Assembly: GCA_903906365.1 (NCBI GenBank)
Contig: CAIVKC010000043.1
Location: 124,001 to 188,000, forward strand
Length of the DNA stretch: 64,000 nt
Direction of reading: 5' to 3'
DNA from: an uncultured Bacteroidota bacterium
Lineage (GTDB): Bacteria; Bacteroidota; Bacteroidia; Chitinophagales; Chitinophagaceae
A program made the translations under genes and the position numbers. Of the stretch, positions 38,571 through 53,616 are shown one piece after another. Each line of letters begins with the position of its first letter. The first letter of the stretch is position 1. Under the pieces are notes generated by a model, which did not search any database, was not told where the DNA came from, and worked only from the letters and a program-made list of their open reading frames with translations.

Positions 38571-39908
38571 CTACTTTACCAGCCGGTATATATCCCTGTA
38601 GATGCGAACGCTGTCACCGGCCACGGTCTCTGCCGGCAAATAAAGGACGAATACAGGAACCGGTTTTTCAAGCGGCAGAGGGACCGGAGCCTGCCCCTTC
38701 AGGCAGGATGCAATGAGGTCCTGGTCTATATGGCCATTGAGCAGAAAAAAAGCCAGTTCATAGGGCTTTTCAAGCCGGATGCACCCGTGGCTGCGGAAGC
38801 GGTATGAGGAAAGGAATGCCCTTTTCAGGTTGGTGTCGTGCATATATACATCAAAAGGATCCGTCAGATTGAATTTTATTACGCCCAGGGAATTATCACA
38901 GCCCGTGCTTTCCCGGAAGTGGTAAGGGAAATTATCTCTATTGTAGGTTGACCAGTCCAGCAGGTGGTGGTTGATGATCCGGCCAGCGGCATCAATCACC
39001 TGCATGTTCATAGAATCTATCAGGGAAGGAGACTTTTTGAACTGGGGCAGCAACTCCCGAAGCGCAATTTTCCGGGGAACATTCCAATAAGGATACAATA
39101 TGATCTCATTGCAATAGGCGCCGAAGCGCGGCGTCTTCCAGTCTGGCTTTCCCACTACTGCTTTCATTTCCAGTTCCACGCTGTCCTGCCGGACATATTT
39201 CAGGCTGGCCGACGGGATATTTACCAGGATGTACCTGTCATAGTGAAAGTGATTGACCCATCTCAGCAGGTTAAGGGTGATTCCCAATTGCTTTATCTGC
39301 AGGATATATTGGTTATGTATGGCCTGTTTAAGGGATGATTTCAGCAGCCGGTAGGACTTATCCCGGGGCTCCAAGGATTGAAACAGGGACAAAAGGGCTG
39401 AATCTGAATCTGCTTCCGCGAGTTTATCGACGATATACCGGTCATCGCCCTGTTGGTGCAATCTCTCCAGACCGTCATAACTAAGCCATTGGTAAATATC
39501 GGATCCCTGGAAAAGATCCCGGCAAAACCCGAGTGCCAGGCCGGTGAGCAGGCTGTCCCTGGCGGCCAGGTCCATCCATGGCCCGGATCCGGGTATGGTA
39601 AATAGTCCGCCAGCCTGTTCCAGGGGCGGATAGCGGGTCCTGTCCAAACCAAACCAGGCGCAACTGTCCAGTGCCTCCCGGAGGACCCGGCGTTTGGCTG
39701 CGGCATAGGGCAGGGAGTCAAACCAAAATAACCTGCCTTTTCGCTGACGGTAAAACGCATTCACGAGGCTGGTATCCGGTGCATGAGCCAAATCCATGGC
39801 CGGGCCCTTAAAACAGACGGAGGAAAGGGGACCCGGTGTATGTAACAACGGGACATGACTTTGCAGGAAAGCGGGGATCATCAACCAGAAAAGACCTGTA
39901 ATTTTCAT
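38571..39908 (-). CDS. L,D-transpeptidase (YcbB-like), secreted
   Basis: 445 residues from ATG 39908 (GTG 39926 adds 6). Signal peptide or anchor at 5-20. The C-terminal YkuD domain holds the catalytic Cys376 in RSHGCIRLEKPYEL. A ~200-residue helical scaffold precedes it, as in YcbB. It should cross-link peptidoglycan (3-3 links) or attach proteins, outside the membrane. It is last in a minus-strand run starting at 43085 (OsmC, USP, baeRF, small unknown, this), 27 bp behind the small protein gene. Confidence 0.9.
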   Translation of the reverse strand: MKITGLFWLMIPAFLQSHVPLLHTPGPLSSVCFKGPAMDLAHAPDTSLVNAFYRQRKGRLFWFDSLPYAAAKRRVLREALDSCAWFGLDRTRYPPLEQAGGLFTIPGSGPWMDLAARDSLLTGLALGFCRDLFQGSDIYQWLSYDGLERLHQQGDDRYIVDKLAEADSDSALLSLFQSLEPRDKSYRLLKSSLKQAIHNQYILQIKQLGITLNLLRWVNHFHYDRYILVNIPSASLKYVRQDSVELEMKAVVGKPDWKTPRFGAYCNEIILYPYWNVPRKIALRELLPQFKKSPSLIDSMNMQVIDAAGRIINHHLLDWSTYNRDNFPYHFRESTGCDNSLGVIKFNLTDPFDVYMHDTNLKRAFLSSYRFRSHGCIRLEKPYELAFFLLNGHIDQDLIASCLKGQAPVPLPLEKPVPVFVLYLPAETVAGDSVRIYRDIYRLVK

Positions 39909-39935
39909 GCGTACTGCTTTAGACACCCCAGGCCG

Positions 39936-40355
39936 CTATTCTGCGTCCAGGCGGGTGTCTTCCATTCTTTCCTCCAGTGATTTTTCCACGGGCGGCAGAC
40001 TGTAGATTTCTCCTTCCTTATTTTGCCTTTCCAGCGACCAGTCTGTAGTAAGGGAGGTTTCAATCCAAAGCTTGCCTGATTTACGGTATAAATGCGCATG
40101 CAGCCCGAATTTTTTATAGAGGTCCCTTTGGAGGTCTGCCACTTTGCGGGAAGGCGAAATATCAATTTGCCCCTTTCTGGCAAAGTTGAAATTGGGGCCG
40201 GGCTCTTGTTTGCCGGGGTATTGGACATCCAGGTGTGCCTGCACGGCCGTGGGATTGCGCACCGCCTGGAAGGCCAGCTTTAGGTATGGGTATTGCTCCT
40301 GGAATGCCTGTTGCAGGGAGGATACTTTCTCCCCTTTTTGTATAATAAGTTTCAA
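39936..40355 (-). CDS. Unknown small protein, family member A
   Basis: 139 residues. Paralogous to the protein at 47318-47725: both contain a SLxxxFxxxYPxLKL block near the N-terminus and a KKFGL...R.G..W...T block in the middle, and both end acidic. The two blocks resemble each other, suggesting an internal alpha/beta duplication. No family recognised. It lies between the baeRF-like and L,D-transpeptidase genes (64 and 27 bp gaps). Confidence 0.65.
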   Translation of the reverse strand: MKLIIQKGEKVSSLQQAFQEQYPYLKLAFQAVRNPTAVQAHLDVQYPGKQEPGPNFNFARKGQIDISPSRKVADLQRDLYKKFGLHAHLYRKSGKLWIETSLTTDWSLERQNKEGEIYSLPPVEKSLEERMEDTRLDAE

Positions 40356-40419
40356 TGTGAAAAGTTTAGGCTGCTATTTATCATGTTGAAATGCTAATCT
40401 GCCCAATCTGGGCAACCGC

Positions 40420-41529
40420 TTATACGTACTGATTGAAAAATTGAATCAGGACAATGTGCTGATAATCTTTGAGGAGGCCATTTTCCACAAATTCAACGTC
40501 ACCGCCATTTTCAAGTACTTTTTCCATGGCATCATCCACTGCGTCTTTTATATAAAACGGATGCTGATCCGGCTGGCTTTCCCTGTAAATGGTTTCCGGA
40601 TGGCCACCCAGGTGTGCCGGATATACAAAATCCTTTTCCACCACCAGCAGCCGGCCGTTCTTATGGTAGGCGGACGCCCAAACATCTTTCATGCCATAAA
40701 CCAGTTTGTGATCATGGCCGGCCTGTTCTATTTGGTTTAATATATCATGGCCCTTGACTTTTTTCCAGTCTGCAATATAGGGTTGCATAATTTCCCGGAT
40801 CCGTGCCTCAGTGGCGTTCACATAATTGCCATGTACATATTCCACGATGCATTTCTCATTATGGGTTATCTTTTTAAAATGCCCCAGCACTTTTTCGGCG
40901 CCCAGCACAAAGACGGGCAGGGGATAGGCTTTCAGGATCAGGGAAAGGCCCTGGTCCATATGGTGCAGGAACTGATCCAGGAGCAACTCCTGGTGCTTGG
41001 CCGGTTCTGAAAAATTGGCCACTTTTTCCGGCATGTCGCGCTCGTATGCCTGGATATTGGCCGGAACATTGTACTTTATAAGCATAAATCTGGTGCAATT
41101 GCCCAGGTACATTTTGGAAGATTCGGCGCTCAGCAACAAAAGCAGGTACTCCATCGTCTGTTTTTTGGAATATACCAGATCCCGTATCTCAAAGGACTCA
41201 TCTATGATTATCCTTTCGTGCAGGGGAATATCCAGGTAAAACATCTTTTCAACTACAGGGGATACAAATATCGCCAGGCTTTTCTTGCGGGTATTGTAAT
41301 TAATTCCGCCGATGAGATGCTGCAGTTTATATATTACCGGCATGGCCTTGTCTTCCGGATAGATGGAAAGGAGTTCTTTTTTAACCTTTTCGCCCACCAG
41401 CTTCAGTTTGTGCTCCAGGTCACTTTTTAAGGACATGATGGTTTCAAATGGCATCGTGATGGAAACCGCCGGAGCATATGTTAGGCCACCTATGACCTGT
41501 TTTTCTTCATCGCTCAGATTCAAGTTCAT
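40420..41529 (-). CDS. baeRF-like (bacterial archaeo-eukaryotic release factor family) protein
   Basis: 369 residues. The C-terminal third matches the eRF1/Dom34 domain 3 pattern: KLVYGMKDVWASAYHKNGRLLVV, AVDDAMEKVLENGGDVEFVENG, then KDYQHIVLIQF. The middle domain starts with LLLLSAESSKMYLGN, typical of baeRFs. I see no GGQ tripeptide, in line with this family. A ribosome- or stress-related role is proposed for baeRFs but not proven. Between a USP gene (127 bp upstream) and small protein A. Confidence 0.75.
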   Translation of the reverse strand: MNLNLSDEEKQVIGGLTYAPAVSITMPFETIMSLKSDLEHKLKLVGEKVKKELLSIYPEDKAMPVIYKLQHLIGGINYNTRKKSLAIFVSPVVEKMFYLDIPLHERIIIDESFEIRDLVYSKKQTMEYLLLLLSAESSKMYLGNCTRFMLIKYNVPANIQAYERDMPEKVANFSEPAKHQELLLDQFLHHMDQGLSLILKAYPLPVFVLGAEKVLGHFKKITHNEKCIVEYVHGNYVNATEARIREIMQPYIADWKKVKGHDILNQIEQAGHDHKLVYGMKDVWASAYHKNGRLLVVEKDFVYPAHLGGHPETIYRESQPDQHPFYIKDAVDDAMEKVLENGGDVEFVENGLLKDYQHIVLIQFFNQYV

Positions 41530-41656
41530 GGCACGTCAATTTATACCAAATGTATTTTTAACCCCTTCATGTTACCCATGATGGATATCAGTGCTTCCAT
41601 TGATTGGTCTCAGGGACAGGGTTTTGCCCGGGCTTTGGCATGGGTTCCTTCGGTTT

Positions 41657-42493
41657 TTAAGAATGCGCTATGAACACGGGCGATTTGACTGCATTAATAA
41701 GCCTGTCGGCAAAACTGTGGTGGAACATCATGGATATATTGCTTCGGCTATAAGCCCCAGCAATGATCAGGGTTCCGGGATCCTCCGTTTCCAGCATGCC
41801 TGCGATTTCTTTTTCATAGGCCTTCAGAACCTTATAGCTTGCCCGCGGGTAATGCCTTTTCATCCATTCCTTGAGTAATTTGTTGTCCGGCAGGTGCATC
41901 GATAGGGTATCGTGTTTGGCACAAAGCAGGACAATCTCCATGCTCCCCATTTCAGGTAAAATGTAGTTCAGCATTTTAATGGCATAAAAAGAGGCGGGTT
42001 TGCCGTCATAGAGAAGGATCAGTTTGTCGATGGGATGAAATTTCTTTGGAACAATGATGGCCGGGCATTTTGTTTCATGAAGCACACTTTTGATGAACCA
42101 GCCGGGCATATGCCCTTCCATATAGGAAAATGACTCACTCCCATCAACAATCAGCAGGTCGGCAAAAATGGTTTCATGGATTAATTCGTCCACCGCGTTT
42201 TTTTTATCGCGGTGGATGGTGAAATTCAGCTTAGCCTCCCTGCATCTCAATTCAAAATCGGCCACGGCCTCATTGAGGGCAGCGGTATCATTTCTTTCTA
42301 TTTGCTGGAAAATCTCCCTTCCCGCCTCCGACTGTTCGGCAATCGTCGCATAAACGGCATAGCCAAGCCTGGTTGATTCCCGCAGAAATACGCCGGTAAG
42401 GTGTGCATGATAGGTTTTTGAAAGATATACTGCATAGTCCATCGTACTTTCTGATGGACGCAGGCCGTCGAATGCAGCGATAATTTTTTTCAT
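41657..42493 (-). CDS. Universal stress protein, two-domain
   Basis: 278 residues with two USP folds (about 1-150 and 151-278). The first starts KKIIAAFDGLRPSESTMDYA and the second KLILLYDGKPASFYAIKM. The ATP-binding G-2X-G signature is only weak in both. Second USP paralogue in the window (other at 28288). Lies 52 bp downstream of the OsmC-like gene on the same strand. Confidence 0.88.
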   Translation of the reverse strand: MKKIIAAFDGLRPSESTMDYAVYLSKTYHAHLTGVFLRESTRLGYAVYATIAEQSEAGREIFQQIERNDTAALNEAVADFELRCREAKLNFTIHRDKKNAVDELIHETIFADLLIVDGSESFSYMEGHMPGWFIKSVLHETKCPAIIVPKKFHPIDKLILLYDGKPASFYAIKMLNYILPEMGSMEIVLLCAKHDTLSMHLPDNKLLKEWMKRHYPRASYKVLKAYEKEIAGMLETEDPGTLIIAGAYSRSNISMMFHHSFADRLINAVKSPVFIAHS

Positions 42494-42545
42494 GTAATGT
42501 TTATTAAGATTATTTGAAATATTTGGTATGCCTACTCTTCAGGCA

Positions 42546-43085
42546 TTAGTATTCCTTGCCGGGGGTAACAAATAGCCTTTCTTTTTCCACTTTGGGTAAA
42601 GGTCCCCCGGGGTGGGCATTTCTTTGGGATTCCAGGCTGACTTCCGGATGATACCTGATCGCAGTTTTTATCGAATTGGAAATAAGACCAACAGTCTGGG
42701 TTTTTTTGAAAGCAAGGATGGCTTTTTCCCGGTCAGCCTCTTCCCTGATATAAATGTCCGGATACAGATCAATGGTTTCAAAATAACAGAGCCCTTCCAC
42801 ATTTTTTATACATCCAATGGCATTACACTCCAGATGGGTCACGGTAGCATTGAATTCGGAAAGCATGGATATATATGTTTTTACAAATCCCGAGGAAACG
42901 GAGGCCAAAAACAGATATTCTGGACTCCAGCATTGGTCTGTTTCCAGCTTATTTTCTTTTGTGAGGGAGACCCGGAGATTTTCCCCCACATTCCATGCAC
43001 TCAGGATACCCCTGCCGCCGCTGAGCCAGTTCACCTGTAATTCCAGCAGCATTTCACCGGCTTTTTTATTGATATTGCCTTTCAT
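42546..43085 (-). CDS. OsmC/Ohr-fold protein lacking both peroxidatic cysteines
   Basis: 179 residues, OsmC superfamily by WSPEYLFLASVSSGFVKTYISM and the C-terminal QTVGLISNSIKT helix. At the two places where OsmC/Ohr enzymes have Cys, the residues are Gly (VSSGFV and TVGLI), so a thiol peroxidase reaction is not expected. Could have become a ligand-binding or scaffold protein. First gene of a minus-strand run with USP, baeRF and others. Confidence 0.7.
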   Translation of the reverse strand: MKGNINKKAGEMLLELQVNWLSGGRGILSAWNVGENLRVSLTKENKLETDQCWSPEYLFLASVSSGFVKTYISMLSEFNATVTHLECNAIGCIKNVEGLCYFETIDLYPDIYIREEADREKAILAFKKTQTVGLISNSIKTAIRYHPEVSLESQRNAHPGGPLPKVEKERLFVTPGKEY

Positions 43086-43513
43086 GAATTTCTTATTTGG
43101 CTTCTTATAAATTTAATATAATGACCTTCCTGCACATATGACCAGGATCAACTATGCCCATGATATGGAGGCTTCCTGCTTCCGATTTTAATGTAATCTT
43201 CTCAGTTTGTATAAGTGGCTACCCTGGCAGGAGGACCCTTGCTGACATCTATGGCTGGACCTGCCCGAAACGGCGCACCCCTGTATCCCCAACGGCCGTT
43301 TTGAGGGAGTATAATAAATGGGTCCGCGGGTCCTATTTACCGGGTGGTTTCCGGCAAGGGTAATAGGCGCAGGCCGGCTCTTTTGGATTGCAGCCAGTTG
43401 TTGCGTTGCTGGGACCGGTCATGATGGCCCATGATAGGGCTCATAACCTGGCATACCGGACAGGGTTAATTTTAGCTTATTATTTTTTGGTCAACTAAGC
43501 AACCCTTGAATAT
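43086..43513. other. Divergent intergenic region
   Basis: About 430 bp between the OsmC-like gene (minus) and the kinase gene (plus). A 69-residue plus-strand frame at 43154-43363 has no recognisable content. No RNA or clear operator seen. Confidence 0.5.
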
Positions 43514-44029
43514 ATGTCAAAGGACTCCGGACTGCTCCTGGTTGTATATGGTTTGCCGGGCTCCGGCAAAAGCTATTTTGCGGCTGAACTCGCAAAGGCC
43601 CTGCGTGCAACCTATTTTAATACTGATATCATCCGCAAGACCATGTCGCCCCTTCCAGGCTATTCAGACAGGGAAAAGAGCCGTATTTATAATAAATTAA
43701 TCGGTGACATTGGCAGGCTGCCGGCTAAGGAGGAATTGGTCATTGCTGACGGCACTTTTTATAAAAGTAAATTCAGGAAATTGGTAAAGCGGGAACTGGG
43801 AGCCCGGTTCCGCATTAAGTATATTGAAGTTATATGCCCCACCGAAGAGCTGCGTAGCAGGCTTCAAATCAAAAGACCCTACAGCGATGCGGACTTTGAG
43901 GTTTACCAACAGATAAAACGAGCCTGGGAACCCATGAAAGGGAAACACCTGGTGCTGGTTTCGGGAAATGACAATCTGGAGGATATGATCAAAAAAACTA
44001 TGGCCTATCTGCTTGAAGATGTTAGATGA
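43514..44029 (+). CDS. P-loop kinase (COG0645-like)
   Basis: 171 residues. Walker A GLPGSGKS at residues 13-20, a following NTDIIRK motif and the adenylate/zeta-like region LRSRLQIKRPYSD. Resembles the AAA kinase half of proteins in which COG0645 and COG2187 domains are fused. Here the two are separate genes overlapping by 11 nt, in the order kinase then phosphotransferase. Substrate unknown. Confidence 0.78.
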   Translation: MSKDSGLLLVVYGLPGSGKSYFAAELAKALRATYFNTDIIRKTMSPLPGYSDREKSRIYNKLIGDIGRLPAKEELVIADGTFYKSKFRKLVKRELGARFRIKYIEVICPTEELRSRLQIKRPYSDADFEVYQQIKRAWEPMKGKHLVLVSGNDNLEDMIKKTMAYLLEDVR

Positions 44030-45041
44030 ACAGGTTCATATACTGATAAACCAGGGCGGGTTTCCGGAATTCACGGTGCGCAGGGACCTGGTGGAAACCC
44101 ATATTTCCTGGGTAATTATCTGTGATGCCTTCGTATATAAAATTAAAAAACCCGTTAGTTTTCCATTCCTGGATTTTTCCACCCTACAAAACCGAAGGTA
44201 TTATTGCGAGCGGGAGGTTGCATTGAATAGCAGGTTTTCAGATGGAATCTATCTGGGGGTGGTGGCAGTTAAGGAAGATCATGGGCATTGGTCCATTGGT
44301 TCGCAAAAAGGTGTAACAGTCGATTTTGCCGTTCGCATGCGAAAAATGGATCCTCAAAAACAAATGGATTTTCTGGTGTCCACCGGTCTTATCACCACCC
44401 GGGAGGTGGAAGACCTGGCAAAAAAAATCGCGGATTTTCATCGTTTGGCCCAGGTGGTCCATTCCGATTCCTTTCAAGAGTTGCCGGCCCAGTTCCGGGA
44501 ACTGGAGCAGGAGATGGGCTATTTGTCAGAAGCCACCCATTCGGATTGTGCCCTGCCTATCAGGGATGCCATTGAGTTTTCCGACCGTTTTATTCATGAA
44601 AGGTTCCATCTGCTGAAGCTGCGGATGGAACAGGGTTTTTTCCGGGACTGTCACGGCGACCTGCACACCAAAAATATATTTTTGCTTCCCAGCCCCCAGC
44701 CATTTGACTGCATTGAGTTCAACGATGGTTTACGGCAAATTGATGTGGCCAATGATATTGCTTTTTTATGTATGGACCTGGAGGTCATGGGAAGAAAGGA
44801 TTTGTCAGAGGTTTTTCTCAGCGCATATAATTCCCGTTTTCCGGTGTTGAACGGATTTGAAGACCAGCTCTTATTTATTTATTATAAGGCCTACCGGGCT
44901 AATATCCGGGCCAAGGTAAACAGCATTAAGTCCCGTAATACCTCCAGGCCACCAGACAAAAACAGGGCTTTGCAGGATACAGCCAGGTATATCCGGCTGA
45001 TGAGTTCCTATATTGCCCAGATGCGCCAATATACCCAATAG
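44019..45041 (+). CDS. COG2187-like aminoglycoside-phosphotransferase-fold protein
   Basis: 340 residues from ATG 44019 (an in-frame TTG at 44013 is possible). Kinase-like catalytic loop CHGDLHTKNIFLL and the metal-binding FDCIEFNDGLRQIDVANDI segment match COG2187/aminoglycoside phosphotransferase enzymes; VYKIKKPVSFPFLDFSTL holds the ATP-binding Lys. Coupled to the kinase gene before it. Role unknown; found in stress-type gene sets in other bacteria. Confidence 0.82.
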   Translation: MLDEQVHILINQGGFPEFTVRRDLVETHISWVIICDAFVYKIKKPVSFPFLDFSTLQNRRYYCEREVALNSRFSDGIYLGVVAVKEDHGHWSIGSQKGVTVDFAVRMRKMDPQKQMDFLVSTGLITTREVEDLAKKIADFHRLAQVVHSDSFQELPAQFRELEQEMGYLSEATHSDCALPIRDAIEFSDRFIHERFHLLKLRMEQGFFRDCHGDLHTKNIFLLPSPQPFDCIEFNDGLRQIDVANDIAFLCMDLEVMGRKDLSEVFLSAYNSRFPVLNGFEDQLLFIYYKAYRANIRAKVNSIKSRNTSRPPDKNRALQDTARYIRLMSSYIAQMRQYTQ

Positions 45042-45068
45042 GGGCATTCCGCCCTTTCATGGTTTTGC

Positions 45069-46856
45069 TTATGGAAGGCCCAGTTTTTTCAGTTTCTTTT
45101 TCTTGAAGGACTCGATCTGTTTCCAGGACAGGGTATTGAGCACATTGCTTTTTTCAGCAAACCCCCTTCTGGCAACAGCAATCCCAAGCTGCATATAGGA
45201 AAACTGGCTTAGTGCGTGCGAATCAGTGCTGATCGTAAGGGTCACACCCGCTTCAATGGCTGCTTTCACCAGTTCATCGGTAAGATCCAGGCGCAAAGGC
45301 TGGGAATTGATTTCAAGGGCTGTGCCGGTGTCCAGGGCAATCTTAAATAGTTCGGCCCAGTTCACAGGATATCCCGCTCTTTTGCCTATTAATCTGCCAC
45401 CTGGGTGTCCGATGCAGTGTACAAATCTGTTTTCGCAGGCTTTCCGGAGCCTTTTGGTATTATCCCTGGTAAAACCCGAGTGAATGGAGGCGGTTACCCA
45501 GTCAAATTGGGCCAGGAGATCTTCTCCGACATCGAGGTGGCCGTCGGCTAAAATATCCACTTCAATGCCTTTTTTAAGCAGGGGAGATCCCAGTTCCCGG
45601 TTTATTTTATCAATTTCCTCAAACTGGCGCAGGAATTCATCGGGTTGGAGTCCCCGGGCTATTTTTTCACTGGGAGAATGATCGCTTACAACAATGTACT
45701 CATAATTGGGATACACAGATTGTATGTGGGCTGCAATGTCTCCAATATCGGCTGCGCCATCACTCCAGGTAGAGTGCAGGTGCATGTCACCTTTCATTTC
45801 TTTTTGTTCGATAAGCTTTGGCAGGGAATGGTTCCTGGCAAGTTCCAGTTCACCCCTGCACTCCCTGAGCTCGGGGGGTATATAATCCATCCCCAGGGCT
45901 TTGTACATATCAGCTTCCGTGTTTCCTGCTATTCTATGATTTGATTTCAGATCAAATATTCCATACTCATTTAATTTCCAGCCCTTGTCCCTGGCCAGGG
46001 TACGCAACTGTATATTGTGCTCCTTTGACCCGGTAAAATAAAGAAGGGCAGCGCCATATTCCTCCTCCAGTACAACCCTCAGGTCCACCTGGATATCGGA
46101 CTGGGCAAGCAGGATGCTCGCCTTGGTGTCACCGCTTGCCAGTATTTTTCCGACGTCCCGCATATTTACAAAGAATTGGATGATGGGTTTCCAGTCCTTT
46201 TTGGCGGCGGTTACCACTGCATCAATGTCCCCGATGGTTTCTTTTCTCCTGCGCAGGCTGCCGCAAAGAACGGCCTGTTTGATACCTTTCATTTTCTGCA
46301 GTTCTTCCAGCACCCGCTCTCCGGCTTTGAGGGCCTCCCAGAGGTTCATGCGGGACTGGGTTTCCTTATGCATTTTCAGCGCCCTTTTTATATTTTCCAG
46401 TTTCTTGGAGCCAAATCCTTTGGTATGGTCAAACTGGCCGCTCCTGAGCGCTTCTTCCATTTGGTCCCGGTTTGAAATTCCCATTTTTTCATGAAAATAC
46501 CTCAGGGTGGCAGGGCCAATGCCATTGACTTCCAGTAAGGGAAGCAGTTCCTCGGGAACCTTCTTTTTGAGTTTCTCAAAGGTCCTGATCTTGCCGGTTT
46601 GCAGGAATTCGAGGATTTTTTCAGCAATACTTTCCCCTATACCGCTTAATTGATCCAGGGTGGAAATATCCTTTGCATAACCTGAGATGTCTTCTTTCAG
46701 GCCGGACAGGGTCCGGGAAGCCTTTTCATAAGCCTGCGCCCGAAACCGCTCCTCCTCGCCGAGGTACCGGTAACATAGGGCCATCTGGTGAAATAATCTG
46801 GCCAGCATTTCATTATGACTGTAAAAGGAGGGGCTATTTTCGGTGGAGGTTGCCAT
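45069..46856 (-). CDS. polX: DNA polymerase X with PHP domain (PolX)
   Basis: 595 residues. Helix-hairpin-helix blocks at about 50-115 (LSGIGESIAEKILEFL, VNGIGPATLRYF), the nucleotidyltransferase motif CGSLRRRKETIGDIDAV with the metal Asp pair, and a C-terminal PHP domain DMHLHSTWSDGAADI for 3'-5' exonuclease activity. Length is usual for bacterial PolX. A gap-filling repair polymerase. It is convergent with the COG2187-like gene and downstream of the thioredoxin gene (157 bp gap). Confidence 0.93.
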   Translation of the reverse strand: MATSTENSPSFYSHNEMLARLFHQMALCYRYLGEEERFRAQAYEKASRTLSGLKEDISGYAKDISTLDQLSGIGESIAEKILEFLQTGKIRTFEKLKKKVPEELLPLLEVNGIGPATLRYFHEKMGISNRDQMEEALRSGQFDHTKGFGSKKLENIKRALKMHKETQSRMNLWEALKAGERVLEELQKMKGIKQAVLCGSLRRRKETIGDIDAVVTAAKKDWKPIIQFFVNMRDVGKILASGDTKASILLAQSDIQVDLRVVLEEEYGAALLYFTGSKEHNIQLRTLARDKGWKLNEYGIFDLKSNHRIAGNTEADMYKALGMDYIPPELRECRGELELARNHSLPKLIEQKEMKGDMHLHSTWSDGAADIGDIAAHIQSVYPNYEYIVVSDHSPSEKIARGLQPDEFLRQFEEIDKINRELGSPLLKKGIEVDILADGHLDVGEDLLAQFDWVTASIHSGFTRDNTKRLRKACENRFVHCIGHPGGRLIGKRAGYPVNWAELFKIALDTGTALEINSQPLRLDLTDELVKAAIEAGVTLTISTDSHALSQFSYMQLGIAVARRGFAEKSNVLNTLSWKQIESFKKKKLKKLGLP

Positions 46857-47013
46857 GATGGGGGCCTATAAAGAAATATTCGGACAAAAATGGGTTGGTA
46901 TTGCTTCTGGGGGAAGGGGATCAAACCGGGGTTCAGGGATAGGGATACCCGCCTGGTTCCATTGACAGATCCGGGTTCCTATTGATCGCCAATCAGGGTC
47001 TGCCCGTTCATAA

Positions 47014-47316
47014 TTAAGTTATATACTGGGCCAGATGGGCCAGTATTTCCTTGGAAGAAGCGACGCCGCTTTTGCGCCAGATGATCCGCCCGTTTTTGAA
47101 AATAATCAGGGTGGGTATGGATTGTATCCCATACTTTTCCGCATAATGGGCATTCCTGTCCACGTCCATCTTAAGAATGGTAGCCCTGTCGCCAACCGCA
47201 TGCTTTACTTCCTGGAGAATGGGTGGCATCATTTTGCAGGGTCCGCACCATTCGGCAAAAAAATCCACCACCACCGGTGTGTCACCCTGAATATGGCCTT
47301 CAAAGTTATTATTCAT
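47014..47316 (-). CDS. trxA: Thioredoxin
   Basis: 100 residues from ATG 47316; the upstream frame to 47394 lies in the preceding gene. Active site WCGPC with C24 and C27, followed by the conserved IPTLIIFKNG (cis-Pro). A cytosolic disulfide reductase. Begins 1 nt after the stop of small protein B, so the two are coupled. Confidence 0.93.
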   Translation of the reverse strand: MNNNFEGHIQGDTPVVVDFFAEWCGPCKMMPPILQEVKHAVGDRATILKMDVDRNAHYAEKYGIQSIPTLIIFKNGRIIWRKSGVASSKEILAHLAQYIT

Positions 47317-47317
47317 C

Positions 47318-47725
47318 TCATAACAATTTTTCCAATTCTGTTTTCCTGTCGGTCCCATGCAGTTGGTCTTCGGTAGCGTGTTGCCCGATTTCATTTTGTG
47401 CAGAAAGGCTTAGTTCATCTGTGCCCACTGTTTGTACCCAGTTTTCTCCATGGCGACGGAAAATCTGGACGTTCAGGCCGAATTGTTTTTTGAATGCCTG
47501 CTCGACGGAACCGGTCTTCTGCCAACCTTGTATTTCTATGGCACCCGGATGTATCTTTCTTATTTCTCCCAGTAGCAGACCGGGATTCAAAATATGATCC
47601 AGGGGGGAGGCTTCCTGCCAGGAATGAGCCTTGTCGAAGAGTTCCAGCTTAAGAAACGGATAATATTTGGCAAATTCAATCCGAAGTGAATCGATGGTTT
47701 TGGTGGGATCAATTTCAATGATCAT
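47318..47725 (-). CDS. Unknown small protein, family member B
   Basis: 135 residues, paralogue of the protein at 39936-40355 (see there). Shared blocks are SLRIEFAKYYPFLKL and KKQFGLNVQIFRRHG.NW. Coupled to thioredoxin at its 3' end. An inverted repeat AAAGGA-5-TCCTTT lies 53 bp upstream. No family recognised. Confidence 0.65.
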   Translation of the reverse strand: MIIEIDPTKTIDSLRIEFAKYYPFLKLELFDKAHSWQEASPLDHILNPGLLLGEIRKIHPGAIEIQGWQKTGSVEQAFKKQFGLNVQIFRRHGENWVQTVGTDELSLSAQNEIGQHATEDQLHGTDRKTELEKLL

Positions 47726-47777
47726 TTTAAAAATGATTTTGTCTGAATGAATTGTTCATAGAGTTTCATCAATATAA

Positions 47778-47794
47778 AAAGGAATATATCCTTT
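47778..47794. repeat. 17-bp inverted repeat upstream of protein B/thioredoxin
   Basis: AAAGGA, 5-nt spacer, TCCTTT; 53-69 bp upstream of the protein B start. A candidate operator in the 289-bp gap 47726-48014, which has no gene. Confidence 0.35.
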
Positions 47795-48014
47795 ATGTAA
47801 GGAAAAAGAAATAAGAAAAATAGCAGGGTGACCCCCCAGGTAAAAACCGATCCGTACACACCGGTCATTGTCTTATTTACATAACCAAACATACAGGCCT
47901 AATTTAATATTACTTTTTAAAATGAAACCCTGTTGATGCGGTAAACATAAGTTTAAATAGGATCCGTAGCTATGATTATTGTCAATCTAAGGGATGATCA
48001 TGGCGCCCGGCCCT

Positions 48015-48401
48015 TCAAATGAGTGACCTGCCCTTCAATTGCAAGGAAATCAGCAGGATCATCAGGGCGGCGCCCAGAAAAAATCCCTGCATCCAGTGGA
48101 ATGCCTGAGAAATCAGCATTTGCACTAGGATACAGACAATGACCAATACGCCGGAGACCATGGAATAAGTAAAAGCACGGGCACCGCTTCTAACCAAATG
48201 CACCCAGGCCAGCAGGTTACAGGAGCCGATCACAAAAATCAGCAGCAACCCAGGGATGGTATAGTTGCTCAACCCGCTGCCTGTCAGCAGGGCAGGGGTA
48301 ATTCCCAAAACGTTGCCTGCCGGATACACCACCATCAGGATGCCGGTTACAAGGGCCGCAACCGCCATACCTCCTGTCAATAACTTTAAAATGAGTTTCA
48401 T
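48015..48401 (-). CDS. Four-helix membrane protein, unknown
   Basis: 128 residues from ATG 48401 (the upstream 53-codon extension overlaps the PEBP gene). Four predicted membrane helices (about 5-25, 43-63, 70-90, 95-115). No family recognised. Follows the PEBP gene by 29 bp on the same strand. Confidence 0.65.
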   Translation of the reverse strand: MKLILKLLTGGMAVAALVTGILMVVYPAGNVLGITPALLTGSGLSNYTIPGLLLIFVIGSCNLLAWVHLVRSGARAFTYSMVSGVLVIVCILVQMLISQAFHWMQGFFLGAALMILLISLQLKGRSLI

Positions 48402-48430
48402 ATCGTCAAGTGTTCCGTTATAAGGATCTC

Positions 48431-48922
48431 TCAGCCCATGGGGGCTTTCTGTTTGGTCCTGGAATAAAGGCCAATCAATTCGCCAAATGCCAGGATATGG
48501 CCACCCATGGCCTTTTCCAACTGATGTTTGGTTGTATCGGCGGGCAAATGCAGCAGGCAATCCAGGGCATATACCTTAAAAAAATAGTGGTGTACGCCCC
48601 CCGGGGGTGGACAGGGCCCCCGGTAAGAACGTACCTTAAAATCATTTTTTCCTTCCAATCCCGGTACGGAGGCTTCTTTTATATGATGGGTTACGGGTAT
48701 GTTCCACATGATCCAGTGGACCCAGGTGCCTGCCGGTGCATCCGGGTCGTCGACGATGATGGCAAGGCTGATGGCATCGGCCGCGATGTTCTCTATGAGC
48801 AGGGGCGGGCTGATGTTTATGCCGTCGCAGGTGTACCTGGAAGGAATAGGTTGCTGGTCCCGGAAGGCCGCACTACTGACCTTGAGTATTTTATAATGCA
48901 CTTCTTTGTTTAGATGATTCAT
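48431..48922 (-). CDS. YbhB/YbcL-type PEBP (Raf kinase inhibitor-like) protein
   Basis: 163 residues from ATG 48922 (ATG 48931 also possible). Ligand-pocket motifs of the PEBP family: YTCDGINISPPL, the DDPDAPAGTWVHWIMWNIP signature and the GPCPPPGGVHHYFFKVYAL block. Cytosolic; ligand unknown. The start lies against the stop of the Pro-rich peptide gene. Confidence 0.92.
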   Translation of the reverse strand: MNHLNKEVHYKILKVSSAAFRDQQPIPSRYTCDGINISPPLLIENIAADAISLAIIVDDPDAPAGTWVHWIMWNIPVTHHIKEASVPGLEGKNDFKVRSYRGPCPPPGGVHHYFFKVYALDCLLHLPADTTKHQLEKAMGGHILAFGELIGLYSRTKQKAPMG

Positions 48923-48923
48923 A

Positions 48924-49130
48924 TTAATCATATTTTGCGAGCCCGGTTTCGGGAACTTCCTCCGGAGGAATTTCCACTGGAGGCTTTTCAACGGGCGGTG
49001 GTTGGGGAATCGTTTCAGGTTCCTCTGAGGGACCGGATGGATTTTCCGGTCTGATGACTGGGCTAATTTCCGGGCGGGTCTTTGGTGAGGGTACCTCCGA
49101 GGGCCTGGAAGGGTTTGTATCTGGACTCAT
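48924..49130 (-). CDS. Proline-rich small protein
   Basis: 68 residues, about a third Pro and a fifth Glu, with repeating PP.E / PE.P units and no hydrophobic segment. Likely unstructured. Peptides of this composition occur next to stress genes in other Bacteroidetes, but function is unknown. Lies between the erythromycin-esterase and PEBP genes and nearly abuts the latter. Confidence 0.6.
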   Translation of the reverse strand: MSPDTNPSRPSEVPSPKTRPEISPVIRPENPSGPSEEPETIPQPPPVEKPPVEIPPEEVPETGLAKYD

Positions 49131-49239
49131 GGGCTTTATTTTCTTACATGTTTGAATTCATTGAATTGACCGGTTGAAAAGGGGATGTCCTCCCTTACCC
49201 GCCGGATTTTTCCTGCTACTTTCCCAAAGCGAATGGACA

Positions 49240-50577
49240 CTATACTCCAAATGGATAGGTTTCCGGCACCAGGTGTCCCACCGCCTCCATATGAAGGGGG
49301 TACAGATCCCTGGTTTTATCCAGAAACACGAACGCGTCATACCGTAAGGGCAATATGGATGGTACATAATTGCCATATTGTTCATATTGGGCGTTGTAAA
49401 CAACGCCTACGGCGCGGTGTCCTATATGTCTTTCCATGAAGGCATCCATGTTGGTATAATCTTCCATAATCAGCAGTTTGTTTTCTTTGCCCGCATGGTG
49501 CAGGATATATTCCCAGCTTCCGTTTCTGGCCTCCGGCAGTTCCATGGTTTGCATGGGGGCTCCCCATTTTCGGCCGGCAATGACCTTTCCGCTGTATGAA
49601 CCAAAACCTACCAGGAATACGCCTTTTTCATTATGATGTATCCTGGCCAGTTCCCCAATATTATACATTCCCTCCTCAGACATATCCGTAGCCCGGGCAT
49701 CCCCGACATGGGTATTATGCGCCCAAACAATTATCTTACTGTTTTCTCCATGAAACGCAAGCAGCCTTTCCATGGTATCAGCCATATGACGATCCCGGAT
49801 ATTCCAGGAATGGGGGCCTCCTCCAATCATGGCCCTGTAATACTGTTCGGCCTGCACCGCGATGCGTGCATTTTGCCCGGTGCTGAATACATTTTCATGA
49901 TCAGAATTATAGGTGGGTATTTTTTGTTGTATCTGCCTGAGTAATTCAATAACCTCCTGCTGGCATAATTCTGGTACAAACTGGGAGGCGGAGGCATATG
50001 ACTGCCCTTCATCTTTTCTGAAAGGTTCGAAACACTGGTAGGCTTCCTGGGCTATTTTCAGCGACAGCGGGTCTGTTTTTCGAAGGTATTCCATAATGCT
50101 TTCCATGCTCTCATACAGGCTGTAAACATCCAGGCCATAGAACCCGACTTTTTTGTTGACGGGAAGGCCGGTGTTGTAAGTTTTCATCCAATCGGCCAGC
50201 GCGACAGTCTCCCAGTTTGCCCACATCCAGGTTGGCCAGCGTTTAAATCCCTGGAGCACCTTAAGTGCGCTCTTGTTATCCTGGTCATAACCCTTGATGA
50301 ACCGGTTCAGTCTGTAACAATCCGGCCAGTCTCCTTCCACTGCAATGCAGTTGAAGCCTTTATTTTCAATCAGGTATTTTGAAATATGAGTCCTCCATGT
50401 GTAATACTCATGCGTGCCATGGCTGGCTTCCCCCAGCATCACAATCCTGGCATCTCCGATTTGTTTAAAGAGCGGATCCAAATCCGCCTTGCTGTTCAGT
50501 GTATACCCCCATTGTTTGACGGCACTTATCAATTCGGATTCCTGCAGGGGTGTCTCTTTGGTAAAATAGTGTCTCAT
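49240..50577 (-). CDS. Erythromycin-esterase-like protein
   Basis: 445 residues. The family active-site region LGEASHGTHEYYTWR with catalytic His and Glu, then IAVEGDWPDCYRLNRF and a later IIVWAHNTHVGDARATDM block. Only a few family members are real macrolide esterases; most stress-cluster members have unknown substrates. First gene of a minus-strand run and divergent from the DUF892 gene. Confidence 0.88.
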   Translation of the reverse strand: MRHYFTKETPLQESELISAVKQWGYTLNSKADLDPLFKQIGDARIVMLGEASHGTHEYYTWRTHISKYLIENKGFNCIAVEGDWPDCYRLNRFIKGYDQDNKSALKVLQGFKRWPTWMWANWETVALADWMKTYNTGLPVNKKVGFYGLDVYSLYESMESIMEYLRKTDPLSLKIAQEAYQCFEPFRKDEGQSYASASQFVPELCQQEVIELLRQIQQKIPTYNSDHENVFSTGQNARIAVQAEQYYRAMIGGGPHSWNIRDRHMADTMERLLAFHGENSKIIVWAHNTHVGDARATDMSEEGMYNIGELARIHHNEKGVFLVGFGSYSGKVIAGRKWGAPMQTMELPEARNGSWEYILHHAGKENKLLIMEDYTNMDAFMERHIGHRAVGVVYNAQYEQYGNYVPSILPLRYDAFVFLDKTRDLYPLHMEAVGHLVPETYPFGV

Positions 50578-50770
50578 TTTAAATGGATTTATCCTGCCAT
50601 TAAAAATTATTTCATTTCCCTTTACCCGGCTCTTTTATGTAGGCCTCCAACCCGGCTTAACGCTCATTTTTGCCTCGCTTTTGGAAGTATCTTCTTTAGG
50701 GAAAGAGACAAAATTTACTGCCCGCTGCCTATGAGATACATTGGATATTTTGCTGACCGAGATCATTTTT

Positions 50771-50782
50771 AGGTCTTGACCT
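50771..50782. repeat. 12-bp inverted repeat in a divergent promoter region
   Basis: AGGTC-TT-GACCT lies 37 bp upstream of the DUF892 gene, between it and the erythromycin-esterase gene. Could be an operator; short, so uncertain. Confidence 0.3.
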
Positions 50783-50818
50783 TGCCTATATTTTTGGCTT
50801 TATTTAAAATATACCGTC

Positions 50819-51340
50819 ATGTCAGATAATTTATTGCAGATAACCACACTTCGGCAATTACTGGAATTTGACGTCGCGCGTTTTATAGTTATTGAAAGGC
50901 AATTAGGTTCTTCTATCAGCCATTGGATCGATATGGCAGGTGCTGATAAGTTTAAGCAGGTCCTTTATAAATACAGGGATTTTATCAACGAGCATATCAG
51001 GAAGATGGAGGATTTTTTTGAAAACAAGGAATTCACCGGTCCGGCCGTTTCAAACAGGATGATGGAGGTTATTTTGGGAGAGGCCGAGCAGAAATGGGCA
51101 TGCTGTGCTGACCAGGCAATTAAGGATGCCTGTCTGCTGGCATCGATCCAAACCATCAATCATTTTAAAATCAGCGCATATGGCACGGCAGCTGCCTTTG
51201 CCACTTCCGTAGGGTTGGAAAATATAGCCGCCGAATTTCGTCTGGCGGAGGTCAATGAAAAGCAAATCGATGACAGGCTTTCACAACTGGCCATTTTTGA
51301 AATCAATGCCAGGGCCAAGGCCCCAATACTTGAAGCTTGA
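50819..51340 (+). CDS. DUF892 / YciF-like ferritin-fold protein
   Basis: 173 residues, four-helix bundle pattern of DUF892 (QLLEFDVARFIVIERQLG, then HIRKMEDFFENKEF, later IQTINHFKISAYGTAAAFA). Ligands expected for the diiron site (Glu/His on two helices) are only partly visible. First gene of the divergent plus-strand run. YciF-type proteins are induced by stress in other bacteria. Confidence 0.7.
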   Translation: MSDNLLQITTLRQLLEFDVARFIVIERQLGSSISHWIDMAGADKFKQVLYKYRDFINEHIRKMEDFFENKEFTGPAVSNRMMEVILGEAEQKWACCADQAIKDACLLASIQTINHFKISAYGTAAAFATSVGLENIAAEFRLAEVNEKQIDDRLSQLAIFEINARAKAPILEA

Positions 51341-51352
51341 AAATTATTCCCA

Positions 51353-52024
51353 ATGGCTGGTAATTATTACAAAGAAGTTCAGATCCCCGTGGATGATGTC
51401 ATTCTTCCCGGGGAGTTGGTGATACCCGAAGGGGCAGGCGCTATTGTTATTTTTTCCCACGGCAGTGGGAGCAGCCGGAAAAGCAAGCGGAATCAGGAGG
51501 TGGCCAGATACCTTCAGATGCATCATTTTGGAACCTTTCTCTTTGATTTATTGACCAGGGAAGAGGACCGTCACTATTTCAACCGGTTTAATATCGACCT
51601 GCTCGCTGCCAGGCTGTCGGGGGCAACCGATTGGCTTGAAAGGTATCCGGCTGCCGGAAATTGCAGCTTTGGATATTTCGGGGCGAGCACCGGGGCAGCA
51701 TCCGCCCTGCAGGCCGCTTCCTATCATCAATCCATAGCGGCCATTGTTTCCAGGGGAGGCAGGCCGGACCTGGCCATGGATTTCCTTCCAGAGGTGAAGT
51801 CTCCTGTTTTATTGATAGTAGGCAGCCTGGATGAGGAGGTTCTTGAATTAAACCGGAAGGCTTTTTCTGCATTACGAGCCGAAAAAAGACTGGAGATCGT
51901 GGAAGGGGCCGGTCATCTATTTGAGGAACCGGGCAAACTCTCCCAGGTCGCTTCACTGGCTACTTCGTGGTTTAATAAATATTTGAAATCCGTCCGGAAT
52001 TCCGAAGTACCCCAGGCAAGCTGA
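51353..52024 (+). CDS. Dienelactone-hydrolase-family alpha/beta hydrolase
   Basis: 223 residues. Catalytic triad S112 (FGASTGAAS), D160 (VGSLDEEV) and H188 (GAGHLFEEPG). A small cytosolic hydrolase of the DLH type commonly linked to a phosphoribosyltransferase. Starts 12 bp after the DUF892 gene. Confidence 0.88.
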   Translation: MAGNYYKEVQIPVDDVILPGELVIPEGAGAIVIFSHGSGSSRKSKRNQEVARYLQMHHFGTFLFDLLTREEDRHYFNRFNIDLLAARLSGATDWLERYPAAGNCSFGYFGASTGAASALQAASYHQSIAAIVSRGGRPDLAMDFLPEVKSPVLLIVGSLDEEVLELNRKAFSALRAEKRLEIVEGAGHLFEEPGKLSQVASLATSWFNKYLKSVRNSEVPQAS

Positions 52025-52156
52025 CGCAGCTGTTGGAAAAGCCGTTTTTTTTAGATTATTATGAGCTTATTCGGACAGCGGCCCGGGTTGGATTTTGGCA
52101 CTGGTAGTACATGCAGGCTTTTTGTTGAGGTCTATATTCTGTAAACTTACTGTATT

Positions 52157-52789
52157 ATGTTTCGCGATAGAATCGAAGCCGGAATAAGGCTGGCTTCCAG
52201 GTTAAAAAAATTCGAGAAGGACGATTCCATTGTCCTGGCAGTTCCAAGGGGAGGTGTTCCGGTGGCCTACGCTGTGGCCAGGGAACTGGGTTTTCCCGTT
52301 GACCTGGTTCTGACAAAAAAAATTGGCCACCCTGCCAACAAGGAATATACCATCGGTGCCGCCAGCCTGACAGATTATTTTGTAGTGCCGCATGAGGACG
52401 TATCCCAGGAATATATCAAGGAGGAACTGGCGGGCATTCGGGAGCGGTTAAAGAGGATGCATAAGGCCTTTTCGGGCGACCATGAGCCGGTCAGCCTGGA
52501 AGGAAAGACCGTTATTGTTATTGACGATGGCATTGCCACCGGAAATACACTGCTGGGAACCGTAGAGATTTTGAGACATGGAAAGCCCCGAAAAATAATA
52601 ATTGCCGTTCCAGTGGCTTCCAGGAGTGCCTTTCAAAAGCTTTCCCGGGAAGTGGATGAAGTCATAGCGGTCTTGATCCCTGAAAGCTTCCATGGGGTCG
52701 GCGCTTTTTATGAGGACTTTACACAGGTCAGTGATGAGGAAGTGATTTATTTACTCCAGAAATTGAAGAATCTTAAGAAAAGGGCCTGA
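52157..52789 (+). CDS. Phosphoribosyltransferase-family protein
   Basis: 210 residues. PRPP-binding loop VIVIDDGIATGNT at 119-131 and flexible-loop region; N-terminal VLAVPRGGVPVAYAVARELG. In many genomes this protein is fused with or next to a dienelactone hydrolase and near an erythromycin esterase, the same trio as here. Substrate base unknown. Confidence 0.9.
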   Translation: MFRDRIEAGIRLASRLKKFEKDDSIVLAVPRGGVPVAYAVARELGFPVDLVLTKKIGHPANKEYTIGAASLTDYFVVPHEDVSQEYIKEELAGIRERLKRMHKAFSGDHEPVSLEGKTVIVIDDGIATGNTLLGTVEILRHGKPRKIIIAVPVASRSAFQKLSREVDEVIAVLIPESFHGVGAFYEDFTQVSDEEVIYLLQKLKNLKKRA

Positions 52790-52947
52790 GGACTCCTATT
52801 TTACAGATTCAATCCCTGGCAGGCGCGATGGCTGACTGACGACTGACAATGGTCAATCAAAAGAGTGATGTAGTTCATCGGCCGACAGGTTCATTTTATT
52901 TCCCTTTGGTAAGAAAAGTTTTATTGATCACCATAAAACAGTTGGTT

Positions 52948-53616
52948 ATGAAAACAGATATTGAAATCCAAAAAGACGTGATGGAACAACTGAAGTACGA
53001 GCCATTTCTGAATGCTTCCCAAATCGGTGTGGCAGTAAACAAAGGCATCGTTACCTTATCGGGAATCGTAGACTCCTATTCTAAGAAATTACTGGCCGAA
53101 AGAGCCGCCAAAAAGGTTTCAGGCGTTAAGGCCATTGCCGAAAACATTCAGGTTGGAATTTCCCCGGCTTTTCATAAAACAGATGCGGAAATAGCCGAAG
53201 CCGTGGTGAATGCGCTGAAATGGCATACCATGATTCCGGAGGACAGGATAAGGGTAAGTGTCGAAAATGGAATTGTAAAACTGGAAGGAGAAGTAGAGTG
53301 GGAGTACCAGAGTACTCAGGCGAGGGCCTGCGTGGAATTTCTTTCAGGCGTAAAATTGGTCACCAATCTCATTACTGTCAAACCAAAGTTATCACCTTTG
53401 GAGATCAAACAGAAGATTAACTCCAGCCTCCTGCGGAGTGCTACCATTGATTCCGGGAAAATAACGGCCGAGGTAACTGGGAGTAAGGTGGTATTGCGCG
53501 GCAGTGTCAGGTCATTTGCGGAAAAAGAAGATGCTGAAAATGCAGCCTGGTCAGCTCCCGGTGTAACCAGCGTGGAAAGTAAAATTGAAATCGAAGAACC
53601 TGAGTATGCGTTTTGA
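52948..53616 (+). CDS. Triple BON-domain protein
   Basis: 222 residues from ATG 52948; the frame starts upstream at 52849 with no good N-terminus. Three BON domains in a row (about 1-70, 75-145, 150-222; e.g. [27 protein letters not shown]). Such proteins may bind membranes or phospholipids in envelope stress. No signal peptide from the chosen start. Last gene before a strong terminator. Confidence 0.88.

Follow-up and report, generated by a model that had tools for sequence, protein, structure and literature searches.

Sets of stress genes resembling the one described here have been reported from mycobacteria and from Burkholderia. The DosR regulon of Mycobacterium tuberculosis, which stands under one two-component system, includes, as listed in passages of the cited papers, universal stress proteins (USPs), the PfkB protein Rv2029c, the esterase and phosphoribosyltransferase (PRT) protein Rv2030c, Rv2031c, nitroreductases, the phosphoribosyltransferase Rv0571c and Rv2004c (PMC5309233, PMC4410610). 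The lxa locus of Burkholderia cenocepacia is described in similar passages as a 50-gene cluster induced by low oxygen, with clustered USPs, a heat-shock protein, a BON protein, a flavin/nitro reductase and a phosphofructokinase (PMC6127331, PMC9104464), and its authors noted the likeness to DosR (PMC6127331). A third point of reference is the ribosome hibernation factor Balon of Psychrobacter urativorans, which lacks the GGQ and NIKS motifs of aeRF1 and of which Rv2629 is a homologue; the portions of the report consulted describe Balon genes as occurring in multiple copies and lying usually in stress operons, most often beside RaiA and also beside Hsp20 or OsmC (PMC10901736), and baeRF genes had earlier been linked with the hibernation factor HPF (PMC6514570, in part). 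Here we describe a block of stress genes in an uncultured member of the Chitinophagaceae (Bacteroidota; assembly GCA_903906365.1, 4.66 Mb in 69 contigs). “The window” is the whole stretch that was analysed, 64,000 nucleotides of contig CAIVKC010000043.1 (positions 124,001 to 188,000; G000:C43:124001-188000 in our numbering).

We consider it probable that this block is one stretch of a genome-wide stress and dormancy regulon, with promoters marked by paired operator sites, that would be switched on by a response regulator with a receiver and a Crp-type output domain (REC-Crp) upon low oxygen or energy loss. In the mechanism that we propose, a PAS histidine kinase would activate the REC-Crp protein, of which the genome has two copies; this Crp/Fnr-type protein would bind as two dimers on palindromes 22 bp apart, beside a TAnnTTTG box (which we take to be the Bacteroidota -7 consensus), and would act as an activator rather than a repressor. 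It would turn on ribosome plugging by a Balon-type factor, the USPs, OsmC, protection by DUF892 and BON proteins and the set of esterase, dienelactone-hydrolase-type hydrolase (DLH) and PRT, and, elsewhere in the host genome, Hsp20, FtsH, PfkB, a phosphoenolpyruvate (PEP)-synthase-type enzyme, a COX1-family oxidase and a pyruvate:ferredoxin oxidoreductase (PFOR) unit, with dormancy as the presumed outcome.

The initial annotation had described positions 38571-53616 as a dense block of little-understood stress families, possibly integrated as one system. Every family that it named was recovered by Pfam or by an open reading frame (ORF) check; it had overlooked two paralogous proteins of a family that we call hyp139, a small membrane protein and the rightward continuation of the gene set. 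Its limits did not hold, as the leftmost operator lies at 41579, at the Balon promoter, and operators run on past the window's end to about 99.5 kb in window coordinates. Conserved co-occurrence, which it had proposed as a check, holds among Bacteroidota as far as the core genes are concerned. The closest relatives of the window esterase (the best 80 of 333 matching loci among genome contigs) belong to Chitinophagaceae and other Bacteroidota, and these 80 loci were compared with 40 evenly spaced 20-kb control regions from seven genomes of the same family under one set of tblastn criteria (p-values uncorrected for query number). At least two of 16 block families, the esterase included, lie together at 58 of the 80 loci and in none of the 40 controls, 39 of which hold none at all. 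PRT was found at 48 esterase loci, DLH at 37, BON at 24, PEBP at 17, DUF892 at 16, Balon at 11 and USP at 10, each of them at 0/40 controls; Hsp20 (12/80), nitroreductase (10-11/80 vs 0/40) and a second USP type, USPb (13/80), recur there as well. No enrichment was seen for 19 genes taken as controls from the window's left part: 9/80 loci hold one of them, and 4/40 control regions hold one or two.

A fixed system of 15 genes was rejected, since L,D-transpeptidase (1/80), PolX (3/80), OsmC (5/80), the P-loop kinase (4/80), COG2187 (6/80) and thioredoxin (7/80 vs 1/40 controls) were not, singly, significantly enriched near the esterase. Eleven Flavobacteriaceae loci, in which the esterase stands without other block genes in a different gene order common to them, also speak against a fixed unit of this kind; none of the 11 holds an operator scoring above 10 (on the matrix described below). 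The notion of a stress-linked, integrated set thus survives for a core that co-occurs within Bacteroidota and shares a promoter architecture, and not for PolX, thioredoxin and L,D-transpeptidase as conserved neighbours; as to “one system,” the sequences give evidence of co-regulation, and the whole looks like a regulon rather than a single biochemical pathway.

Seeding on Balon instead (20 of 21 places in 60 genomes of the family, the window copy left out) gave USP at 7 loci, Hsp20 at 6, hyp139 at 4, PRT at 3 and the esterase at 2, USP and Hsp20 being at 0/40 controls. Balon occurs in 17 of the 60 genomes and in 5 of the 10 with a high-scoring esterase (a count with no statistic attached), so the argument for esterase-Balon linkage rests on position, the two lying within 10 kb of each other in 3 (G000, G002 and G045) of the 5 genomes that have both.

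The promoter evidence comes from a search for palindromes (arms of 4-6, gaps of 0-12) in 272 intergenic regions beside block genes from 87 loci (L003-L068 and L087-L107) against 241 intergenic regions of the controls; loci L069-L082, which are 14 of the 80 esterase loci and mostly Flavobacteriaceae, were left out here and restored for the per-gene test. The top palindrome was ATCA-N10-TGAT, in 55 regions vs 0, followed by TGAT-N4-ATCA (77 vs 6) and related forms, which combine into a paired palindrome, TGAYN4RTCA-N10-TGAYN4RTCA. The single element TGAYN4RTCA occurs 199 times in 70.4 kb of block-adjacent DNA and 9 times in 67.3 kb of control intergenic DNA. Spacing is strict: RTCA-N10-TGAY was counted 126 times vs 0 in controls, as against 7 vs 5 with N9 and 7 vs 2 with N11, and the palindromes of a pair lie 22 bp apart in 85 pairs, the next commonest distance being found in 3. 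Classical CRP sites (TGTGA-N6-TCACA) were also tried and are present in neither the block-adjacent nor the control set.

A 40-column matrix was built from 126 training sites, leaving out the window and the locus on contig C57 and keeping loci of the same genus. Ten sites in the window score above 10, where about one would be expected at the control rate, and every one of them falls within 41.6-63.6 kb; 9 of the 10 are accompanied by at least 5 of the 6 letters of the -7 box (the FtsH site has 4/6). Left of 41 kb there are 7 weaker sites (above 4), none with a box, and 7/134 such sites in the controls have one. In a two-fold held-out test, a site was found upstream of 26/30 Balon, 16/18 DUF892, 17/22 USP, 16/21 Hsp20, 19/29 BON, 50/84 esterase and 20/41 DLH genes, compared with 151/1315 for the other genes of those loci and 4/632 for control genes.

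The position of TAnnTTTG was examined in 301 site-gene pairs, each with a site scoring above 14 and a gene that starts no more than 120 bp away (one site may count twice). It follows the operator at an offset of 23 in 44 pairs and of 24 in 11, and at any other offset in at most 2. If the box starts near -12, the near palindrome would have its centre close to -41 and its partner close to -63, with the transcription start placed accordingly. Crp/Fnr class II proteins activate from a TGA-N6-TCA core placed near -41, and the predicted geometry agrees with this class II feature (a palindrome near -41.5); the operator differs from the class II arrangement in having a second dimer site fixed 22 bp upstream. 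The single sigma-54 pattern tried gave no match downstream of the operator.

The operator is spread far beyond the window. TGAN6TCAN10TGAN6TCA, allowing one mismatch, occurs 50 times in the host genome, as against 3 times for the mirror control; the sites are clustered on C13 and, on C43, from the window as far as about 223 kb. At the loci listed for their neighbouring genes, which were picked for holding sites, the genes after or next to the sites include USP-like genes (judged by eye), a PEP-synthase-type enzyme, PNPOx-like and PfkB proteins, a P-type ATPase, Hsp20, FtsH, a COX1-family gene (cbb3-type by eye), PFOR with its partner, an alcohol dehydrogenase, a second Balon gene and a Crp-family gene, P0006; two PNPOx-like ORFs were seen, and the Pfam-checked copy on C43 has no site directly before it. 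Exact pairs number 341 vs 9 mirror controls in 60 genomes of the family, 52 of which have at least one, and 360 vs 10 in 99 genomes of the class, 68 of which have at least one.

A statistical association points to the likely activator, a response regulator in which receiver, cNMP-binding and Crp-type helix-turn-helix domains are combined. Two such proteins, P0007 (C13:13160-14212) and P0008 (C43:209806-210855), are encoded in site-rich regions of the host genome, and the P0007 gene follows a PAS histidine kinase gene behind an operator. In 12 aligned REC-Crp relatives, the phospho-acceptor Asp (D52) and the Lys (K104) of the receiver are invariant, as in response regulators, and the recognition helix carries E...R (ESLIR, ESLNR or ESVSR), which we take to be closer to Fnr. 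Within the family, 329 sites fall in the 47 genomes with a REC-Crp match (an open frame of at least 345 aa, judged by eye with no domain check) and 12 in the 13 genomes that lack one (p about 1e-6). In the class, 320 sites were counted in the 53 genomes with a full-length match, 51 of which have at least one, and 40 in the 46 genomes without, 17 of which have at least one, at p about 9e-13, with at most 21 regulator candidates scored per genome, some of the genomes without a regulator incomplete, and genome size and relatedness not fully controlled; because of the limit of 21 candidates, some absences are possibly misses. Twenty-two families that all have the regulator differ likewise from 21 that all lack it (p about 8e-8, 13 mixed families left out). 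Outside the family, loci around the regulator were taken from 20 of the 51 genomes that have it, for the most part those with the best scores; they hold 50 sites, 33 of them with a -7 box, vs 4 and 0 in reversed sequence; 19 of the 20 have at least one site, hyp139 occurs at 8 and USPb at 9.

Several observations weigh against this reading of the block. Since the operator was found in block-adjacent DNA, its density there is partly circular, a problem that the held-out tests address, and control regions do contain 12 sites above 10 in 796 kb. Own sites are rare or missing in the held-out test for PRT (7/53), PEBP (2/18), COG2187 (0/9) and PfkB (0/6), some of which are presumably served by a promoter further upstream, and the window esterase has no well-placed -7 box (4/6). 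In the class, 17 of the 46 genomes without a full-length regulator match have a site, one of them 8, and 2 of the 53 with it have none. At the 20 regulator loci outside the family, neither Balon nor window-type USP, Hsp20, esterase, DLH, PRT, BON or DUF892 was detected at the tblastn cut-off; there the switch and its sites are seen, and the full gene set is not. Gene content is the sole source of the low-oxygen reading. Finally, P0006 (L181:7070-7777, minus strand, on G000:C29) is a cysteine-free member of the Crp family whose start is preceded, at 27 bp, by an operator, and the presence of its orthologues correlates weakly with the number of sites (p=0.03).

A stand-alone Crp/Fnr protein such as P0006 might be what binds the operator, the REC-Crp genes being mere targets or neighbours. 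In favour of this, the TGA-N6-TCA element is the general Crp/Fnr core. Against it, the P0006 recognition helix has RE...R, as in CRP, and should prefer GTGA half-sites; P0006 orthologues (at least 54% identity) are present in 9 of the 60 family genomes, genomes without one reach 29 sites, and REC-Crp tracks the sites better, in the family and in the class. We regard a stand-alone binder as unlikely, and P0006 was demoted as a candidate master regulator. It may form a second layer of the network. The four-cysteine 4Fe-4S set of Fnr was not found in either protein, P0006 having no cysteine and P0007 one; the REC-Crp candidate differs from Fnr/Crp class II activators both in its receiver domain and in lacking the Fe-S cysteine set.

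For the REC-Crp regulon that we favour, the nature of the signal is a separate matter, and it could be general stationary phase, heat or oxidative stress instead of low oxygen or energy loss. Hsp20, OsmC, DUF892, FtsH and thioredoxin are general stress families, and the kinase beside P0007 has, by Pfam, PAS folds as its only sensor domains, nothing oxygen-specific. On the other side, operators also stand before the COX1-family oxidase gene, the PFOR unit, the PEP-synthase-type enzyme and USP-like genes, and the set resembles the hypoxia-induced DosR and lxa sets as portrayed in parts of those reports (PMC5309233, PMC6127331). A general stress signal seems to us the less plausible of the two, though it deserves serious consideration.

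The resemblance to DosR extends over USP, PfkB, esterase/PRT, Hsp20, nitroreductase, kinase and Balon, all of them gene kinds that are present beside operators in the host genome and that were matched by family name rather than by alignment, save for the fold of Rv2629. Of the DosR genes, Rv2031c encodes an Hsp20, Rv2004c belongs to COG2187 and Rv0571c is in part a hydrolase. The regulators differ: DosR has an output of NarL/LuxR type, and the regulator here has a Crp-type output and acts, we propose, on TGAYN4RTCA pairs in a different phylum (the DosR box itself was not searched). As for lxa, the string “Phosphoribosyl” is absent from the main text of PMC6127331.

The protein that the initial annotation called baeRF-like, P0001, is a Balon-type ribosome hibernation factor, homologous in sequence and, according to its predicted structure, in three-domain fold, and would as such be expected to bind the ribosomal A site under stress. 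It matches Balon (PDB 8rd8_B) in phmmer at E=3e-11 over residues 38-362. The five top Foldseek hits of its AlphaFold model (pLDDT 76.5) are the Balon and Msmeg1130 structures 8rdv, 8rd8, 8rdw, 8v9l and 8v9j (E 1e-22 to 2e-17, TM about 0.6), with the Rv2629 structure 8v9k at rank 9 (E 4e-13). The relationship is a distant one, with 18% identity and a high root-mean-square deviation of about 9-10 A in the structural match (8-12 A over the hits), and 194 bits against the NCBIfam ribosome hibernation factor NF052287, whose cut-off is 330. Neither a GGQ nor a NIKS string is present in P0001. Balon has an HP motif near its N-terminus that sits at the decoding centre; scanned for the bare dipeptide, the N-terminal part of P0001 shows no HP. 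The genomic context of P0001 is partly known already, because a stress-operon context of Balon genes has been reported (PMC10901736, in the portions consulted). The second Balon copy of the host genome, on contig C57 (L001), was excluded from alignment A1.

Relatives of the block also occur on plasmids in several phyla, and gene order is shuffled between loci, so one may ask whether these stress genes are loosely clustered by shared mobility on plasmids and islands, with no common regulation, the palindromes serving some other global function. Plasmid records with a relative of the esterase numbered 205 (5 regions opened) and those with a relative of COG2187 103 (2 opened), and 4 of the 7 opened regions contain partial versions of the set. 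Sphingobium pTK1 carries BON, USP, a PAS kinase, response regulators, esterase-hydrolase-PRT, a hexose kinase and a CBS protein; Paraburkholderia pOLGA1 carries BON, nitroreductase, Hsp20, USP, CBS, cydAB and a COG2187-type protein annotated as a bifunctional phosphotransferase/ATP-binding protein; on a Rhodococcus plasmid, BON is accompanied by USPs, Hsp20 and a long esterase protein. The fourth, a plasmid of the haloarchaeon Salinigranum marinum (L086), combines several USPs within 25 kb with esterase, hydrolase, PRT, ribokinase and CBS genes, which suggests that the gene kit crosses domains. The wider set was not seen in the other three regions, from Deinococcus (PRT-esterase and little else), Methylovirgula (esterase alone) and Amphritea, whose COG2187-type gene has cbb3 oxidase genes 4-8 kb away. 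Mobility with no shared control is nevertheless very improbable in our judgement: the operators stand at a fixed distance from the -7 box and point at block genes, and in the held-out test 76-89% of the Balon, DUF892, USP and Hsp20 promoters carry a site, vs the 4/632 of control genes.

A broader proposal can be put forward tentatively, at somewhat less than even confidence, which is held down by the finding of hyp139 and a USP but no other block family at the regulator loci outside the family: that much of Bacteroidota runs a counterpart of the DosR programme evolved on a different switch, in which a kinase and a Crp-type regulator, acting as two phosphorylation-coupled dimers about two helical turns apart, would directly command Balon hibernation, protection of wall, proteins and redox state, and low-oxygen metabolism. 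Mycobacteria, Burkholderia and Bacteroidota, with similar kinds of gene placed under different switches, would exemplify a conserved survival kit that has been rewired to different controls. For the locus itself, a list of poorly understood stress genes becomes a candidate regulon with a promoter code that can be scanned for; esterase-DLH-PRT, DUF892, the COG2187 kinase and hyp139 gain a common regulatory context, and a testable regulator can be named for a large phylum's dormancy and ribosome hibernation. Among the open-licence PMC papers listed by searches aimed at such regulation in Bacteroidota, none was recognisable from its title, its abstract opening or, for PMC11841059 and PMC9239204, passages as dealing with this regulon, operator or regulator, which is weak evidence of novelty.

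The features of the window are listed in Table 1. By spacing, the genes fall into the units OsmC-USP (gap of 52 bp), Balon-hyp139-L,D-transpeptidase (gaps of 64 and 9 bp), the overlapping P-loop kinase and COG2187 genes (the latter being the label that the initial annotation and we give to the APH-like gene), hyp139b-thioredoxin-PolX, PEBP with the small membrane protein, the esterase, and DUF892-DLH-PRT, after which comes BON behind a separate operator; we take the DUF892 protein to be ferritin-like. The start of the BON gene is probably near 52948, as the position of its operator implies. CheB and the CheR-PAS-histidine kinase, behind an operator of their own, may feed a signal into the regulon or be among its targets.

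Table 1. Genes, operators and -7 box in the window (positions in window coordinates; score, matrix score of the operator).
Feature	Position	Strand	Basis and remarks
L,D-transpeptidase (Scaffold + YkuD)	38571-39926	-	PF03734/PF20142; last gene of Balon unit
hyp139 family protein, 139 aa	39936-40355	-	no Pfam match
Balon-type hibernation factor (baeRF_family3), P0001, 369 aa	40420-41529	-	PF18845
Balon -7 box TACATTTG	41547-41554	-	6/6; offset 24 from operator
Balon operator	41579-41612	-	score 27.0
Universal stress protein, 278 aa	41657-42493	-	PF00582, residues 1-149
OsmC-like protein	42546-43085	-	PF02566, 27.3 bits, just under 27.5 cut-off
OsmC-USP operator	43139-43172	-	score 13.7; -7 box 5/6
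P-loop kinase-COG2187 operator	43410-43443	+	score 14.9; -7 box 5/6
P-loop kinase (AAA_33)	43514-44029	+	Pfam
APH-like kinase	44013-45041	+	Pfam, 21.9 bits, under 23.2 cut-off; overlaps P-loop gene
PolX	45069-46856	-	Pfam
Thioredoxin	47014-47394	-	PF00085
Second hyp139 family protein (hyp139b)	47318-47725	-	alignment with first copy
Operator towards hyp139b-thioredoxin-PolX	47973-48006	-	score 14.1; -7 box 5/6; 247 bp from hyp139b, 56-aa ORF between
Small hydrophobic protein, probably membrane	48015-48401	-	inside ORF 48015-48560, likely start ~48401; relatives in 10 other esterase loci
PEBP family protein	48431-48991	-	PF01161
Proline-rich peptide, 68 aa	48924-49130	-	ORF
Erythromycin-esterase-family protein	49240-50577	-	PF05139, E=1.5e-116
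DUF892-DLH-PRT operator, perhaps also for divergent esterase	50732-50765	+	score 10.3; -7 box 6/6 towards DUF892, 4/6 towards esterase
DUF892 protein	50819-51340	+	PF05974
DLH-type alpha/beta hydrolase	51353-52024	+	PF01738
Phosphoribosyltransferase	52157-52789	+	PF00156
BON operator	52844-52877	+	score 22.8; -7 box 5/6
Triple-BON protein	52849-53616 (ORF as listed)	+	PF04972, 3 stretches; start probably ~52948
KAS III-like gene	53772-54845	-	Pfam
Operator towards KAS III-like gene	55136-55169	-	score 16.0; -7 box 6/6, offset 22; ~290 bp upstream of gene
CheB / CheR-PAS-histidine kinase operator	57493-57526	+	score 17.8; -7 box 5/6
CheB methylesterase	57677-58336	+	Pfam
CheR-PAS-histidine kinase	58340-62464	+	Pfam
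Nitroreductase	62544-63254	-	PF00881
Operator towards nitroreductase	63447-63480	-	score 10.5; -7 box 5/6
FtsH operator	63574-63607	+	score 21.1; -7 box 4/6
FtsH	start ~63646	+	gene after operator 63574

No RNA family (at gathering thresholds) and no tRNA was found in the window, and no PDB sequence matched the window USP at 1e-4. The esterase is distantly related to EreB, and macrolide resistance is not predicted for it because its EreB score is far below the cut-off (66.5 of 750 bits).

The window encodes two hyp139 proteins, of about 139 aa, and a further ORF, on C13 (L176:3586-3954, minus strand), is alike by eye. The family is found at 4/20 Balon-seeded and 8/20 REC-Crp-seeded loci vs 0/40 controls; no PDB structure matched its AlphaFold model (pLDDT 74.5) at E below 0.4, the hits being weak and ubiquitin-like. 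The 68-aa proline-rich peptide may be a real conserved peptide. With the low-complexity filter off, tblastn matches to it (35-55% identity) were found in 15/82 loci, and 10 of the 15 lie directly past the 3' end of the esterase gene.

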